NCBI GenBank assembly: GCA_017889545.1
Contig: JAGFZV010000023.1
Location: 1-44,014 of the forward strand
DNA: 44,014 nt
From: Bacillota bacterium
Lineage (GTDB): Bacteria; Bacillota; Negativicutes; CTSoil-072
Direction: 5' to 3'
Shown: in pieces, positions 16,554-25,620 of the stretch
Position numbering within the stretch: position 1 is the stretch's first letter
Layout: every line of letters begins with the position of its first letter
Notes under the pieces: generated by a model
Seen by the model: only the letters and a program-made list of their open reading frames with translations
Database searches by the model: none
What the model was told of the DNA's origin: nothing
Program-made: the position numbers and the translations under genes

Positions 16554-18203
16554 TTACTTTACAATCGCTCCCGTGTTCGCCGAGGTAACAGAATTGGCAT
16601 ACCGGACAAGATAGCCCTTTGTTATCTTGGGCGGCGGCTGCACCCAGGCGGCTTTTCGGTTGTCTAACTCTTTCTCACTGACATTCACAGTAAGACTTCT
16701 CTGCGGAATATCGATCGTAATGGAATCACCTTCCTGTATGAAAGCAATCGGACCGCCAGATGCCGCTTCCGGAGAAACATGTCCTACGCAAGCGCCCCGC
16801 GTCGCACCACTGAAACGCCCGTCAGTGAGTAAAGCAACTTTAAGACCCATCCCGGCAATAACCGCGGTTGGGTTCAGCATCTCCTGCATTCCCGGGCCGC
16901 CTTTCGGTCCTTCGTAACGGATGACAACGACTTCGCCGTCTTTGATTTGTTTTTCCAGCAATGCACGAATCGCGGTTTCTTCCGAATCAAAAACACGCGC
17001 CGGTCCTTCAAAAAACAACATGTCCTCTGCAACCGCGCTCGCCTTCACGACGGCTCCGTCGGGAGCAATATTCCCATACAGAATAGCGATCCCGCCAGTG
17101 GAACGATAAGGAGAATCGACACTGCGGATCACTTCCGGCCGTTCGATCAATGCGTCCTTTATTCTATCAGCTACCGTTCCGGTTACCGTCTTGGCATTGG
17201 TATGAATAATGCCAAGTTTGCTAAGTTCGTTCATTACCGCAGGAATGCCCCCGGCTTCATTTAAATCTTGCAAATAATGCGTACCGCCCGGACTCATTTT
17301 CGTCAGGTATGGCGTCTTCCCACTTATCTGCTCGAACAAATTGAGCGGCAATTCTATCCCGGCTTCATGCGCAATGGCCGGCAAATGCAGCACCGTGTTT
17401 GTAGATCCGCCGATGGCCATGTCCACCACAATTGCATTTTTAAATGCATCGATGGTCATAATATCCAATGGCTTTATATCCTTCTTGACCAAATCCATGA
17501 TCACTGTTCCAGCGCGTTTCGCCAAAATTTTCCGTTCGCCGAACACTGCCGGTATCGTTCCGTTTCCAGCCAATCCCATTCCCATCACTTCGGTAAGGCA
17601 ATTCATCGTATTAGCCGTAAACAGACCGGCACACGACCCACAGGTCGGACAGCCTGCTTTTTCCAGTCCAGCAAATTCTTCTTCTGTAATATGCCCGCCC
17701 TCATAGCGGCCGGCTCCTTCCAGCACGGTAATAATGTCAATGTTTCGACCTTTGTAGCGCCCCGCCAACATTGGCCCGCCGCTTACAAAAACGCTTGGAA
17801 TATTTAGCCGGGCAGCCGCCATCAGCATCCCAGGAACGATTTTATCGCAATTCGGAATAAAAACCAGTCCGTCGAACCCATGCGCCATAACTACCGCCTC
17901 ACAAGAATCAGCAATTAATTCACGGCTGGCAAGCGAATACTTCATTCCGACATGTCCCATGGCAAAGCAATCGCCAATCCCAATCGACGGAAACTCCATG
18001 GGAGTTCCACCGGCAGCGGCTACGCCTAGTTTTACAGCATCGGCAATTTCCCGCAAGTGGCTGTGTCCCGCAATAATTTCATTGAAGGAATTTACAATCC
18101 CTATCAGCGGTTTTTCCAGTTCTTCCGGTGCATACCCCATACTATAACAAATCGCTCTTGTCGATGCCCGTGTTGAGCCCTTCAATACAACGTCACTTCT
18201 CAT
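16554..18203 (-). CDS. IlvD/EDD family dehydratase (possibly a sugar- or hydroxy-acid dehydratase)
   Basis: A 549-residue dehydratase of the dihydroxy-acid/phosphogluconate dehydratase superfamily, which removes water from hydroxy acids with an iron-sulfur cluster. Cys119 ([11 protein letters not shown]) and the cluster [10 protein letters not shown] (Cys185, 188, 191) are conserved, as are [19 protein letters not shown] and [15 protein letters not shown]. The N-terminus ([20 protein letters not shown], and [11 protein letters not shown] with Cys79) departs from the usual branched-chain IlvD sequence. No other ilv genes are present; instead it is last in an operon with UxaA- and LarA-like genes, so a role in catabolism of a sugar acid or other hydroxy acid is more likely than in valine synthesis. 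True IlvD activity cannot be excluded. Confidence 0.85.
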
Positions 18204-18253
18204 TCAATCACCTTCCCAAACTAGTAATGGCCTGCTGAACAACACAGATTCCT

Positions 18254-19546
18254 CTAAATCATATAACCATCGGAATCGAATTGGAGTTCATAAGGTTCGC
18301 TAATGATTTCAATGTCATCTCTGCCTTTGCACTCCTTATAAAAGCTTTCGGATACTTCAATCTCTTCCATGCATAACGTATTCTTGATTCGCACCACTTT
18401 CGCCTGATTAAAATCAATCCCTGTGCAAGTTCGAATCGCCACAAGAAGAGCTTCTCTGTCATTATTCATATAAATGGGGATCCGTCCGCCATTCATCATC
18501 GTTGCGGTAATAACATTCGTCCAGGTAATATCAAAATCGACCGACCTTACACATTTTAAGGTTGTGACATCCGCCATGGCTAAACCGCAGCCGTTATGAT
18601 GACTTTCTTCCGAAATCCCGCGAATAAACATTTTCTTCAAATCCAAAACGCTCTCAAAACCGGTAGAATTGCTTCTCCCTGTTATATTCGGATCATGCCC
18701 GTTCCCGCTGATGTTTTTACCTATTTCATCGATAATGAGGACATCGATTTGCGGGAACTTAAATTTTGCCACTTTCTCTTTGGCAATCTGCAAGAGGGCA
18801 GCATCTCTTTCCATGATTTGTTCTTTTTCCATCACTTCCAGTTCACTAATTTCATCATAAGCATTCTGGACAATACCAACACCAAACGCTACCGGCGCAT
18901 TCTTCAAAAACACTTCACACACTCTCGGAATTCTGTCGGCAAAAGAAGGAAACCCTTTCATGTGAAACATGGAGGCCCCTTTGTGCTTGGCAAGACCGAT
19001 GGCTATCATTTTGGCCATCCCGCTTTCATATTTCCCCCTAAAATCCGTATGAGGCTTCACCTTATTCAGAACAACAATTCCATCCGATTCATATGCATAT
19101 TTATCGCAATACACCGGAGTTCCATCATCCAATTCGCCAATTTGCACCGTATCCATGGAGGATAAAATCGGCGCTCCGACTGTTTCTTCCGTAATATTAT
19201 AACCGGCAATTAACTCTTTCTGCCCTTCTGCGGTTGCACCGCCGTGACTGCCCATCGCCGGTATGACAAATGGTTTTGCGCCCCATTCCTTTAGTTCAGC
19301 AACAACCGTTTTAATAATCAGATCGAGATGGGGAATCCCCCGGCTGCCTGCCGTGATGCAAATCCTTTTCCCCTTATAATCCTCTTTTTTTTGAATATTT
19401 TTTTGCATTTCCTGAATAACCCAAGCAGCCAAATCTTTAATTTTATTGGCATCATAAATTTGCTTTATTTTCATCATTTTAGGAAATTGAATTGTTTCCG
19501 CTCCCTCAATCACCACATGCACTTCCTGGAAATCAATAAAATTCAT
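18254..19546 (-). CDS. LarA-like (nickel-pincer) lactate racemase family protein
   Basis: A 430-residue protein of the LarA/DUF2088 family. In lactate racemase a nickel-pincer nucleotide cofactor is bound to a lysine and histidines; candidates here are His101 (MGSHGGAT), His166 (VKPHTDF), Lys179 (ESGMAKM) and His188 (LAKHKGA), in the same order and with similar spacing to LarA. Homologues of this type racemise or epimerise various 2-hydroxy acids. The cofactor genes larB, larC and larE are not in the window. AAGGAGG precedes the ATG. It lies between a UxaA-family lyase and an IlvD-family dehydratase, so it probably converts one stereoisomer of the operon's hydroxy-acid substrate to the other; the substrate is unknown. 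Confidence 0.78.
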   Translation of the reverse strand: MNFIDFQEVHVVIEGAETIQFPKMMKIKQIYDANKIKDLAAWVIQEMQKNIQKKEDYKGKRICITAGSRGIPHLDLIIKTVVAELKEWGAKPFVIPAMGSHGGATAEGQKELIAGYNITEETVGAPILSSMDTVQIGELDDGTPVYCDKYAYESDGIVVLNKVKPHTDFRGKYESGMAKMIAIGLAKHKGASMFHMKGFPSFADRIPRVCEVFLKNAPVAFGVGIVQNAYDEISELEVMEKEQIMERDAALLQIAKEKVAKFKFPQIDVLIIDEIGKNISGNGHDPNITGRSNSTGFESVLDLKKMFIRGISEESHHNGCGLAMADVTTLKCVRSVDFDITWTNVITATMMNGGRIPIYMNNDREALLVAIRTCTGIDFNQAKVVRIKNTLCMEEIEVSESFYKECKGRDDIEIISEPYELQFDSDGYMI

Positions 19547-19596
19547 TTTTATAGCCTCCTTGTCAATTTTCCTATTTTTCTCTTGTTGCCATACAG

Positions 19597-20763
19597 CTAC
19601 ACATAGTCACACATTCTCCTGATCACTGTCTCGCTAAAACCAAAGCCATAAATCTCTGTTTTCGTTTTCTTGCCGTTAGCAACTTTTATCATTTCTTCAA
19701 ATACACTGTCCGCCATTTCTTCTAAAGATTTTTTGCCCTGAAGAACAGGACTGAGATCCATATCCATATTGTCATTCATCCTGACGAATAAATCTTCATT
19801 GGCAGTCACCTTGATAACCGGTGCGATCGGATTGCCAATCGGATTGCCCCTGCCGGTTGTGAAAACAATGAGCTGACAACCTGCAGCTACCTTTGCCGTC
19901 ACCGACAGTAAATCATACCCGGGAGTATTCATATAGATCAACCCTTTTTGCGACGGTCTCTGCGCACAGTCTATCACTTCCATAATTGGTTTCGTACCGC
20001 CTTTATGAATACAGCCAAGTGATTTTTCCTCTAACGTTGTGATCCCTCCTGCCTTATTACCGGGCGAAGGCTGCCCTGACCGCAAACTTTCATTGACCTT
20101 CTTCAGATCATTTTCAAGTTCAGTGCAAATATCCAATAGTTTCTGCCCCATTTGCGGCGTATGGCACCGTTTTGCCAAAATATGTTCCGCACCAATGATT
20201 TCCGGAGTTTCGCTGAACATAGACGTCCCGCCACTCTCCACCAAAATATCGCTGACACGCCCCATGACTGGATTGGCAACCAGTCCGGACGTTGCATCAG
20301 AACCACCGCATTCAATCCCCAACATCAATTCCGAAATATTGACTTCCACCGTTCGATTGGAGGATGCTTCGGTTACCATTTGCTGCGCAATCTGAACCGC
20401 CTTGCAAATCGTCTTGACCGTCCCGCCTTCTTCCTGAATGACTAAGGTCTTTAACGGTTTATTCGTCATTTTGCCAATGATTTCAGCCATTACCTCTACA
20501 GAATTCGGTTCGCATCCGAGACCAACGAGGATTGTTCCATAAACGTTGGGGTTAGCGGCCAAACCTGCCAGTACGGTTTGCGTGAGTTTTCGATTGCCTT
20601 CCACCTCCCCGCAGCCATTTTGGTTAATAAGACTTACTGTTCCATTCACAAGTCCTGCGATGATCCGGCAAGTTTCAGTAGCACACCCTACTGTAGGTAA
20701 GATTAGCACGTGGTTTCGAATCCCAACTAATCCATCCGGTCTTTTATATCCATAAAATTTCAT
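19597..20763 (-). CDS. UxaA/SuyB-like lyase, large subunit
   Basis: A 388-residue protein matching the C-terminal part of altronate/galactarate dehydratases (GD_AH_C) and the large subunit of (R)-sulfolactate sulfo-lyase. Recognised from YKRPDGLVGIRNHVLILPTV at the start, NQNGCGEVEGN, LVGLGCEPNS, MLGIECGGSDATSGLVANPV and GLIYMNTPGYDLLSVTAKVA. These enzymes eliminate water or sulfite from a hydroxy acid with an iron-dependent centre. The partner SAF domain is a separate gene 21 bases upstream, a split seen in both UxaA-like and SuyAB systems. The sequence does not decide between a sugar acid and sulfolactate. GAGGGG precedes the ATG at 20763. Confidence 0.82.
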   Translation of the reverse strand: MKFYGYKRPDGLVGIRNHVLILPTVGCATETCRIIAGLVNGTVSLINQNGCGEVEGNRKLTQTVLAGLAANPNVYGTILVGLGCEPNSVEVMAEIIGKMTNKPLKTLVIQEEGGTVKTICKAVQIAQQMVTEASSNRTVEVNISELMLGIECGGSDATSGLVANPVMGRVSDILVESGGTSMFSETPEIIGAEHILAKRCHTPQMGQKLLDICTELENDLKKVNESLRSGQPSPGNKAGGITTLEEKSLGCIHKGGTKPIMEVIDCAQRPSQKGLIYMNTPGYDLLSVTAKVAAGCQLIVFTTGRGNPIGNPIAPVIKVTANEDLFVRMNDNMDMDLSPVLQGKKSLEEMADSVFEEMIKVANGKKTKTEIYGFGFSETVIRRMCDYV

Positions 20764-22094: not shown

Positions 22095-22121
22095 GACACA
22101 AGGGAGCACCTCCCCTGTGTC
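22095..22121 (-). terminator. Terminator of the AOR accessory genes
   Basis: The hairpin GACACA-GGGGAG / CTCCCTTGTGTC (minus strand, one mismatch) is followed by TTTTT. It overlaps the stop codon of the ThiF-like gene and lies nine bases beyond the stop of the convergent LysE gene. Confidence 0.8.
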
Positions 22122-22839
22122 ACGTCACTGTTAAGATTTCAAAAACATTCATTTCCGTATCAAAATATAATAATTTATTTCGCAGCGGCTCACCAATTCC
22201 AGTGATCACTTTTACCACTTCCTGCACCTGCAGCGAAGCTGCTAAAGCCGGTGTACCTGCCGGATTGCCGAGCATCGTTTCTACTCCTTGATTTGGCGCA
22301 TTGGTTTGCCTGTAAATTCGCTCAAGACCGTTATCTCCAGGCATAATGGTCATAACCTGCCCGGTAAAGCCGGCAATCGCAGCATATATCAGCGGTATTC
22401 CGTATTGTTTTGTTACCCTATTCACCAACAACCTGGTCGATACATTATCCAACGCATCGACGACAACGTCAACACCTTTCAATAACTTTTCTGCATTCCC
22501 TTCATCCAGCATGCAGGGAATCGCCTCTGCTTGCACATCACAATTAATCACTTCAACCCGGCTGGCTGCCGCATAGGCTTTATTGACTCCAATATTGTGT
22601 TCAGTCGACATTAACTGGCGGTTAAGATTATGAACCGCAAAGGTATCGCCATCAATAATCCGCAGCTGACCGACTCCCAAACGAGCCAAGAGCTCAATTA
22701 CTGTCCCGCCTAATCCGCCTGCACCGACTACTGCAACCTTAGATTTGAGCAAACGTATTTGCCCGGCAATACCGACCGTCCCAAAATTGCGCTGATACCG
22801 TTCCGGCATCTTGCCTTCCGCTAACAGCGCCAACGACAA
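22120..22839 (-). CDS. ThiF/MoeB/HesA-family adenylyltransferase
   Basis: A 239-residue E1-like enzyme. It has the ATP-binding GAGGLGGTVIELLARLGVG, IDGDTFAVHNLNRQL with the conserved Asp and Asn-Arg, and VVDALDNVSTRLLVN. Such enzymes adenylate the C-terminal glycine of a ubiquitin-like sulfur carrier (MoaD or ThiS). The CxxC pairs of the zinc site in MoeB/ThiF are absent, which is usual for shorter HesA-like members. The gene directly follows two MoaD/ThiS-like genes and an aldehyde:ferredoxin oxidoreductase, so it probably helps make the pterin cofactor dithiolene or a related sulfur transfer. The TTG start at 22839 has AAAGGA nearby; a TTG two codons later is equally possible. Confidence 0.85.
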   Translation of the reverse strand: MSLALLAEGKMPERYQRNFGTVGIAGQIRLLKSKVAVVGAGGLGGTVIELLARLGVGQLRIIDGDTFAVHNLNRQLMSTEHNIGVNKAYAAASRVEVINCDVQAEAIPCMLDEGNAEKLLKGVDVVVDALDNVSTRLLVNRVTKQYGIPLIYAAIAGFTGQVMTIMPGDNGLERIYRQTNAPNQGVETMLGNPAGTPALAASLQVQEVVKVITGIGEPLRNKLLYFDTEMNVFEILTVT

Positions 22840-23128: not shown

Positions 23129-23470
23129 TTATTGTTCTTCTTTTTTATCCTTCAACGTAAAGCTAAATTTATTCTCCTGGTTTTTTGAATAAAATCCCAG
23201 CGCCATCCGATATGGCCCCGGGCAGCCCGGCGGTACAAAGGCCACACGGTCCCCTGGTTGAATAATGCAATGTAAGGATTGAGCGAAGCCATTTACGAAA
23301 ATGATTTCGATTTCATCTATCGGTATCTCCAGTTTTTCAGCCAACTCAATCCCCGTAATGGGCTTTTCAAGATCAATCAGCAGCGGAACAGGCCAGTTGC
23401 GCTTTTTAAATACCTGATCCAACTGAAGAAAACCTCTTACTTCAATGGCTTTCTTGTCTTGTACTGACAT
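23129..23470 (-). CDS. MoaD/ThiS-like protein without the Gly-Gly end
   Basis: A 113-residue protein whose middle is a ubiquitin-like fold (ITGIELAEKLEIPIDEIEII, FVNGFAQSLHCIIQPGDRVA). The chain does not stop at a diglycine: FVPPGCPGPYRMALGFYSKN replaces it and a charged tail of about 20 residues follows. It therefore cannot act as a normal sulfur carrier unless it is processed after a Gly. It lies between the oxidoreductase gene and a genuine diglycine MoaD-like gene, beyond an internal terminator. It may be a structural partner or chaperone of the oxidoreductase; this is inference. GGAGGG precedes the ATG. Confidence 0.8.
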   Translation of the reverse strand: MSVQDKKAIEVRGFLQLDQVFKKRNWPVPLLIDLEKPITGIELAEKLEIPIDEIEIIFVNGFAQSLHCIIQPGDRVAFVPPGCPGPYRMALGFYSKNQENKFSFTLKDKKEEQ

Positions 23471-23596: not shown

Positions 23597-25339
23597 TTAG
23601 AAATTGTAAACCTCGTCAATTTCTTCTGGAGTGAAATCCCATACCGCATTGTGCGGCGGGCAAGGCTCATACTCAAAGAATTCAGGCAGACGATCGTGCG
23701 CATTACTGAACCCGGCCGCAGCATTGAAAGCACGCTCAACCTTGAGGACGGATTTTCCTAGGGCGGTTACATCGTCAGCGGTCAATGACAAACCGTACCG
23801 GGCATTGATCATATCAACCAAAGCGTTGAATCCTTCCGGAATATCCAAAATAGCGAAGGCAATGAATAGGCACATTCCCGTACTATCAACGGCAGCAGTA
23901 GCAATCTGCAAATTCCGGGACAATTCTACTTGCCCTTCTTTCTTAAGCGGATCAACATAGCCGCCGATCTTCAATACATTGGTCGCGATAGCATAACCGG
24001 CAGTGTGATCAGCCCCCATCGTTGTTGTAGCATATGTCAAGCCAATCCCTTTAATCGAGCGCGGATCGTACGCCGGAATAGCCTGATCTTTGACTACCGG
24101 AACCCGGAACAGTCCGCAAAGTTTACCGACAATCGCAGTCCCGCCGCCGAGAATTCTTCCCAGAGGAGTTGGAACAGCGATTTGTTTAACAATATCCAGA
24201 GCTGCTTTACCGTCACCCCACGGGATCAAACCGCCTTCCATAGCAGTCGCAATGGCAACGGAAACATCAATAGAGTCTACACCAACATCATCCATTGCAC
24301 GGTCAAGATATGCGATATCATCCAGGTCCTGAATGCCGGCATCAGCGCCCAAAGCCCAAACGGTTTCGTATTCAAAGCCGCTGGTAATATATTTGCCATC
24401 TTGATCAGGATACCACTGAGAACACCGCATAATACAGCCGGCATGACAGCCATGAGAAACCTTACCTTCGCCGCCGCGTTCAGTAATCGTAGCGTTCATG
24501 GTTTCCCCGCTAATTTTATCATTAAAGTCGATCCGTCCGGAAGTGAAGTTTCTCGCTGGCAAACCGCCGGCTTCATTGACAATGTTTATCAAAACGTCAG
24601 TACCATAGGCCGCCAAAGCCTGACCGGTAACCGGGTGCTTTAAAAGAGCCTGGGAAAACACCTTTGCTGCAGCCTTGAATTCTTCCGGTTTGGCAAGAGG
24701 AACGCTAAGCGGCGCGCCGGTATCGTCAATAACAACGGCCTTTACCTTCTTGGAACCCATCAATGCACCCAACCCGCCGCGGCCAGCGCTGCGAAGATGA
24801 TCTTCCGGATCTTTAAAAGAAATATTCGCTGTAGGCAGGCGGTACTCGCCAGCCGGACCGGCCAGTGCGATCCCGACTTTAGGGCCATATTTTGCGTTCA
24901 AAACTTCGATCGCCTTGTAGTTGCCGCAGCCACCGATGATTTCAGCCGGCGCATCGTCGATCACGACACCGTTCATTCCGATTTTGATTACATAGAATTT
25001 ATCTTCTGCAGGCATTCCTTCGATAACCAAAGCTTTTATGCCCATTTTCGCCATTTTCTGCGAAAAAGTACCGCCGGTATTGCTCTCTTTAATCGTACCC
25101 GTCAATGGGCTTTTGCCGCCAACGGAAAGTCGTCCGGATTGCGCAGCAGTTGTTCCGCTGAGAAGACCAGGAGCAAATATCAGCTTGTTGTTTTTGCCTA
25201 GGGGATGACAAGTCGGTTTTACCTCATCCGCAACAAAGTTGGAAGTAAGCGCTCGGCCTGCCAGACCTGCGTACTTTTCCGGCACATCCAAAGTGGCGAT
25301 TTGCTTCGTTGTCATGTCTACGCGAATAAATTTGTCCAT
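23597..25339 (-). CDS. aor: Tungsten-type aldehyde:ferredoxin oxidoreductase
   Basis: A 580-residue enzyme of the AOR family, which oxidises aldehydes to acids, or reduces acids, with ferredoxin and a bis-pterin tungsten centre. The N-terminal domain has LAGRALTSNFVADEV, LIFAPGLLSGT and SVGGKSPLTGTIKESNTGGT; SAGRGGLGALMGSKKVKAVV binds pterin. Cluster cysteines are Cys298, 302 and 306 (GCHAGCIMRCS, a C-x3-C-x3-C spacing rather than the C-x2-C-x3-C of the Pyrococcus enzyme) and Cys490 (STGMCLF). GAGGGG precedes the ATG. The 245-base leader contains a terminator just before the gene, so expression is probably controlled by attenuation. Two MoaD-like genes and a ThiF-like gene follow. Confidence 0.92.
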   Translation of the reverse strand: MDKFIRVDMTTKQIATLDVPEKYAGLAGRALTSNFVADEVKPTCHPLGKNNKLIFAPGLLSGTTAAQSGRLSVGGKSPLTGTIKESNTGGTFSQKMAKMGIKALVIEGMPAEDKFYVIKIGMNGVVIDDAPAEIIGGCGNYKAIEVLNAKYGPKVGIALAGPAGEYRLPTANISFKDPEDHLRSAGRGGLGALMGSKKVKAVVIDDTGAPLSVPLAKPEEFKAAAKVFSQALLKHPVTGQALAAYGTDVLINIVNEAGGLPARNFTSGRIDFNDKISGETMNATITERGGEGKVSHGCHAGCIMRCSQWYPDQDGKYITSGFEYETVWALGADAGIQDLDDIAYLDRAMDDVGVDSIDVSVAIATAMEGGLIPWGDGKAALDIVKQIAVPTPLGRILGGGTAIVGKLCGLFRVPVVKDQAIPAYDPRSIKGIGLTYATTTMGADHTAGYAIATNVLKIGGYVDPLKKEGQVELSRNLQIATAAVDSTGMCLFIAFAILDIPEGFNALVDMINARYGLSLTADDVTALGKSVLKVERAFNAAAGFSNAHDRLPEFFEYEPCPPHNAVWDFTPEEIDEVYNF

Positions 25340-25585
25340 GAAAACCCCTCCTATCTTGAATTTGTTTTTGGAGAAAGAAAAAAAGAGGTCCTAAAAATCA
25401 AATTGCATTTTTAGTCCCTCTTCCTTCGCACATTGGCGGGCGTGACAATTGCTTGTCGCACCGTAACGTTTATTGTCTCCCAGTAGGATGGCAATAAATC
25501 GGAAGCAAGATTCAATTTTTTTATTCCTGTTTTTTGAGTGCCGCATGGCACTCCTTGCGGTATTTCAACAAATAATATTCCTCTT
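25340..25585 (-). promoter_or_regulatory. Structured AOR leader with attenuator (riboswitch candidate)
   Basis: The predicted transcript runs about 245 bases before the AOR start codon. Reading along the minus strand: a hairpin GAGTGCC/GGCACTC (25550-25533) that competes with CCGCA/TGCGG pairing; a TTTATTG/CAATAAA stem (about 25498-25470); a GACAA-GCAA-TTGTC hairpin (about 25458-25444); then an intrinsic terminator with arms AGAGG..CTAAAAAT and ATTTTTAG..CCTCT (25421-25384) running into TTTTTT, which ends 35-45 bases before the ATG. This is the layout of a transcriptional riboswitch. A molybdenum/tungsten cofactor ligand would make sense, but I could not match the known Moco/Tuco consensus. 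Confidence 0.65.
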
Positions 25586-25591
25586 ATAATA

Positions 25592-25620
25592 ATTATATGC
25601 TTTTTATATTCGAGTCACAA
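25592..25620 (-). promoter_or_regulatory. AOR promoter
   Basis: On the minus strand TTGTGA (25620-25615), 17 bases, then TATAAT (25597-25592). A second TTGTGAC occurs exactly 60 bases further upstream (25680-25674), which may be a regulator site or chance. Confidence 0.6.

Follow-up and report, generated by a model that had tools for sequence, protein, structure and literature searches.

A probable tungsten-cofactor ON riboswitch, diverged from the P3-less form of RF01055, in the leader of an aldehyde:ferredoxin oxidoreductase gene

Why should a gene for a tungsten enzyme begin with a long, folded leader that ends in a terminator? The window considered here, the first 44,014 nucleotides of contig JAGFZV010000023.1 from a Negativicutes bacterium, encodes on its reverse strand a protein (23597-25339 (-)) with the AFOR_N and AFOR_C domains of aldehyde:ferredoxin oxidoreductase (AOR). 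Its nearest solved structures are the AORs 9mqx and 1aor, and the assignment to the tungsten oxidoreductases made by an earlier, sequence-only reading of this locus is thereby confirmed. Behind it lie genes for a MoaD-like ubiquitin-fold protein (Ub-Mut7C, with a marginal Pfam score; 23129-23470 (-)) and, by domain match, a ThiF/MoeB-type E1-like adenylyltransferase (22120-22839 (-)), which are consistent with a role in cofactor sulfur chemistry. The genome holds a second AOR, 88% identical to the first, and the leader of this paralog is 80% identical to that of the window in its terminator-proximal part only. Elsewhere, the window contains a c-di-GMP-I riboswitch (RF01051; 5713-5805 (-); 76 bits) and an operon-like run (16554-20763 (-)) of a dihydroxy-acid dehydratase, a nickel-pincer-cofactor isomerase (group 22) and a galactarate/altronate dehydratase-like gene, perhaps serving sugar-acid use.

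A conserved, covarying block in the leader

The leader spans about 245 nt from a putative sigma-70 promoter to the AOR gene. The promoter proposed by the sequence-only reading (TTGTGA-17-TATAAT; 25592-25620 (-)) matches the consensus at 10 of 12 positions and is the top-scoring sigma-70-like site of the region, where such sites are frequent by chance (seven found against 4.7 expected); conservation of the promoter or of the upstream part of the leader was not found in relatives. An intrinsic terminator (25376-25422 (-)) was also found by folding where that reading had placed one, 35-45 bases before the start: a stem (25422-25407/25398-25383) of -18 to -19 kcal/mol with a U-run, ending about 40 nt 5′ of the ATG and followed by the ribosome binding site AGGAGGGG (25345-25352 (-)). 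A simple terminator scan did not report it, probably because of a GA/GA internal loop. The claim of a structured leader with at least three possible hairpins held in part. The leader does fold more stably than its shuffles (z = -4.5; 0 of 200), but the 5′ hairpins (e.g. GAGTGCC..GGCACTC near 25552-25535) are conserved neither in the paralog nor in relatives, and we have discarded them as switch components. Conservation instead begins abruptly at 25505 and continues into the terminator, so that it covers only about the last 120 nt.

The conserved block opens with an element of four helices (25420-25505 (-); 94.2 bits with our model R1). The P1 5′ strand CUUCC (25501-25505 (-)) is followed by a short P2 without a tetraloop receptor (25469-25498 (-)), by P4 (25439-25462 (-)) with a GCAA loop of the GNRA type at 25449-25452, by P5 with GC/GC pairs (25428-25437 (-)) and by the P1 3′ strand GGAAG (25420-25424 (-)), of which AAG (25420-25422) is common to the 5′ arm of the terminator. 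The minimum free energy (MFE) fold of the isolated segment yields P1, P2, P4 and P5 unguided. The same block of about 90 nt, with its terminator, lies before AOR orthologs of Sporomusa, Lucifera and other Sporomusaceae and in the paralog leader, and at several Sporomusa loci a second copy with its own terminator stands upstream. In a MAFFT-based alignment of 20 sequences, 95.5% of cells are paired (41-52% in slid-structure controls) and double changes occur in 15 of 29 pairs, a level reached by none of 500 shuffles. A larger alignment of 100 sequences, gathered by R1 and aligned to it, gives 95.2% paired cells and double changes in 25 of 28 pairs (0 of 500 shuffles), with 591 double-change cells against 138 in shuffled alignments; because it was fitted to the model, the smaller alignment is the cleaner test. 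The comparison of orthologous AOR leaders that the sequence-only reading had proposed, with absent covariation as its refutation, thus returned strong covariation.

This pattern bears on two other ways in which such a leader could work. Attenuation by a leader peptide or a T-box, or a terminator that arose by chance in a leader free of regulation, is scarcely credible: a five-codon ORF (MQFDF) does follow GGAAGAGGG inside the terminator hairpin of the window, but it is missing in relatives, the window leader has no match to the T-box family RF00230, and strong covariation speaks against an idle leader. We have rejected the leader peptide and the T-box on these grounds, and the comparative data already largely refute this group of explanations. 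Control by a tungstate- or cofactor-sensing protein that binds the leader RNA is improbable, if somewhat less so. The terminator overlap would suit a protein as well as a ligand, and direct ligand binding has never been demonstrated for the RF01055 class; against this, the RNA, about 86 nt long, is a large covarying structure of several helices that shares its topology with a recognised aptamer class, and no single-hairpin protein site is evident in it.

Relationship to RF01055

The aptamer class in question is RF01055, the Moco/Tuco family. The Rfam scan suggested by the sequence-only reading gave a divided answer: at E ≤ 10, RF01055 was not detected in the window leader, where only chance matches to unrelated families appeared (as in the tandem leader at L053), so that the window element fails the gathering cutoff, while AOR-leader elements of relatives reached 40.7, 43.1 and 39.8 bits in whole-genome scoring (cutoff 36). 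The element of the own-genome paralog falls below that cutoff with 28.5 bits (E = 1.4e-4). The order of parts is nevertheless that of RF01055: P1 ending in CC/GG, GA, P2, a GNRA-capped P4, P5, AAA and P1 again, with covarying P1, P2, P4 and P5 around the central junction. The junction letters of the family (CCGA and AAAGG) appear as CUUCCGA and GAAGGAAG in the window and as CCGA...AAAGG in relatives, and nearly all copies have a GNRA loop on P4. The GAAA loop and 11-nt P2 receptor, usual though not universal in RF01055, are absent from the window element. Both marks of the Tuco subtype, a missing P3 and association with tungsten-enzyme genes, are present. An iterated profile search that took the window as its start led to an RF01055 copy of Tepidimicrobium, and canonical RF01055 lies at the equivalent position of AOR orthologs in Clostridia. 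From this topology, the profile link, the scores of the relatives and the Clostridia orthologs we conclude that the window element is, on sequence grounds, a diverged P3-less relative of RF01055 by descent, though it lies under the formal Rfam score. We have rejected a wholly new riboswitch class, which had been raised as a possibility, because AOR-leader elements of relatives exceed the cutoff: what appeared unmatched belongs to a known class, as a diverged member or a variant.

How does this variant differ from the canonical form? Its hallmarks are a P4 loop that is GNRA but not GAAA, the lack of a tetraloop receptor, GC/GC in P5 and overlap of the terminator with the P1 3′ strand. R1 matches with a non-GAAA loop (GCAA, GUAA, GGAA, GGGA and others) nearly all combine GC/GC in P5 with a receptorless P2 of about 27-33 nt; P2 is longer where GAAA occurs with CC/GG, and mixed copies are few. 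Since this set was gathered with R1 it is biased, and we therefore set beside it 40 strong RF01055 copies that these genomes also contain; a pattern allowing either type could read 26 of them. All 26 of these combine GAAA with CC/GG. In every variant copy with a detected terminator (66/66), the terminator stem takes up two or more of the four P1 3′ bases, as against none in the six other copies of the R1 set (canonical or mixed); among the canonical check copies with a detected terminator, it was separate from P1 in 20 of 20. These canonical neighbours belong to the same class and likewise accompany genes of Mo/W metabolism. Compared with the P3-less (Tuco) form described in 2008 (Regulski 2008; PMC2408646), the variant is alike in its P1-P2-P4-P5 order, the GA after P1, the AAA before the P1 3′ strand, the GNRA loop on P4, the absence of P3 and placement before AOR genes; it is unlike it in having GCAA, GUAA or GGAA rather than GAAA, a receptorless P2, GC/GC rather than CC/GG in P5 and a terminator sharing the P1 3′ strand (the ON layout), and the window copy in lying under Rfam detection. 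Four GCAA copies without a receptor were noted in that study and are not treated as a group in its main text. Tandem Tuco-form copies with their own terminators are known from S. wolfei (PMC2408646), and tandem Wco riboswitches (PMC9481103) resemble S. ovata aor1/aor2 in their serial copies and separate terminators, whereas the window has a single copy and the listed Wco tandems precede other genes. A mixed type is seen in Sporomusa ovata, where three serial RF01055 copies (L110:14937-15545 (-)) combine GAAA loops with GC/GC in P5; at another locus of this genome (L109:14106-14180) a group II intron match lies just 5′ of an RF01055 copy.

These differences raise the question of whether the scaffold has been kept and the ligand changed, away from that of canonical copies, to the tungstate or molybdate oxyanion, a metal-free pterin or the nucleotide-free (as against the guanylated) W-bis-pterin of AOR. 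In the variant, GC/GC replaces CC/GG at the near-invariant core pair of P5, the contact between tetraloop and receptor is missing, and AOR genes or operons lie downstream of most variant copies. On the other hand, the Clostridia orthologs of the same AOR carry canonical P3-less RF01055, which suggests the same signal, and variant copies also stand before moeA, ThiF-type and regulator genes. We regard a changed ligand as a tentative possibility. It is equally tentative that the GC/GC, receptorless RNAs form a distinct variant riboswitch with a ligand of their own (for example the nucleotide-free W bis-pterin, or the tungsten but not the molybdenum cofactor) and an activating logic opposite to that of canonical copies in the same cells. 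Our best guess for the ligand remains the tungsten cofactor (Tuco), given the gene association, the absence of P3 and the effect of tungstate described below.

Switching and the response to tungstate

The leader is likely, in our view, to be an ON riboswitch that works by transcription termination, with the diverged P3-less RF01055 member at 25420-25505 as its aptamer. With no ligand, the P1 3′ strand GGAAG would be pulled into the terminator stem and transcription would stop before the AOR gene; once the tungsten cofactor, or a W-pterin closely related to it, is bound, P1 would stay closed, the terminator would be left incomplete and AOR would be expressed. Folded without ligand, the leader has its MFE in the terminated state, at -67.4 kcal/mol; forcing P1 raises this to -60.6, and a ligand that stabilises P1 should therefore permit read-through. 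P1 and the terminator are mutually exclusive, and since their overlap in the window is the three bases AAG, the competition is partial.

Published expression data for S. ovata provide an independent view of this logic. By RT-qPCR, a shift from 1x to 10x tungstate raised aor1-2 30.4-fold, aor4 14.3-fold, mop2 3.8-fold and fdhA2 3.3-fold, and left aor3, mop1 and fdhA1 unchanged; riboswitches go unmentioned in that study (PMC4973070). We matched its genes to the genome by their order, length and contig prefix. Contig 1 has three AORs, namely aor1, aor2 and aor3, and the ORFs of 579 and 484 codons published for aor1/aor2 are found there; the assignments of fdhA and mop, from position and order, are less certain than those of aor. 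Intact tandem elements precede aor1 and aor2, and elements are likewise intact at both AORs of contig 5, which include aor4. An RF01055 copy is present at fdhA2, and no element was found at fdhA1 or mop1 in the stretches searched. The mop2 gene lies further down a cluster headed by an RF01055 copy together with a sigma-54 regulator, and we count it as indirect for this reason. In the aor3 element, P2 and P4 are retained, whereas the P1 3′ strand and the terminator are gone. The responses fit the predicted ON logic, including that of the unresponsive deletion copy. A deletion has removed the P1 3′ strand and the terminator 5′ arm from the AOR leaders of both Sporomusa sp. KB1 (L063:4877-4995) and S. 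ovata aor3 (L017:4894-4963), and these copies are predicted from their sequences to be naturally always on.

The tungstate response of the Sporomusa AORs could instead be set at the promoter by a sigma-54 activator, with the element just fine-tuning it. Sigma-54-type regulators adjoin several AOR and oxidoreductase genes, and because they are common in these loci a transcription factor could cause the rise in S. ovata; TTGGCACAAAAATTGC also lies upstream in the Lucifera AOR leader. Yet aor3, which lacks the P1/terminator segment, does not respond, and a search upstream of the window leader gave no good sigma-54 site, on which ground we have rejected such a promoter there. We consider promoter control of this kind unlikely. 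A transcriptional riboswitch tied to the W/Mo cofactor, as the sequence-only reading had envisaged, is well supported by conservation, covariation, P1/terminator overlap and the published tungstate response; direct binding to the RNA, the exact ligand and an effect of tungstate through the element are what we infer from these.

Distribution and wider implications

Of 380 genomes of the class, 20 have R1 matches, as do 66 of the 398 genomes in a phylum sample when E is limited to ≤ 1e-4; these counts include some canonical copies. The first downstream gene is mostly AOR, whether immediately next or with a small ferredoxin-like gene in between; moeA, a ThiF-type gene, a trigger-factor paralog and sigma-54 regulators belonging to oxidoreductase clusters are found there too.

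In kind, the element is an ordinary Moco/Tuco-type riboswitch; what is new is an AOR-linked ON variant, missed by Rfam and backed by existing expression data. The RF01055 model overlooks a sizeable share of the GC/GC, receptorless copies. Whether P3-less RNAs of the Moco class do sense the tungsten cofactor has been judged from correlation since 2008, as the cofactor is not stable enough for use in binding assays. Our literature search found no experimental work on the Tuco form after Regulski 2008, which the reviews consulted cite alone, and a search for a link between AOR and riboswitches returned that paper and unrelated ones only. The 30-fold effect of tungstate was left unlinked to RNA by its authors (PMC4973070), and the existing S. 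ovata data make the tungsten-sensing hypothesis directly testable; a simple test system is at hand in this AOR family, where single and tandem switches occur intact beside a natural unresponsive deletion copy. If correct, the hypothesis would explain how AOR is switched on in acetogens used for CO2-to-ethanol conversion and would yield a tungsten-responsive expression part.

Two further observations concern genes and promoters around these elements. A sigma-54-promoter-like motif (TTGGCA-N-TTGC) stands before the AOR orthologs at L018, L020, L026 and L035, several of these being loci without a riboswitch. In Sporomusa, trigger-factor paralogs directly follow Moco/Tuco-type elements (L122:1498-2829, and the ORF after L120:7754-7849 (-)), and a chaperone under such control would perhaps serve the maturation of Mo/W enzymes.
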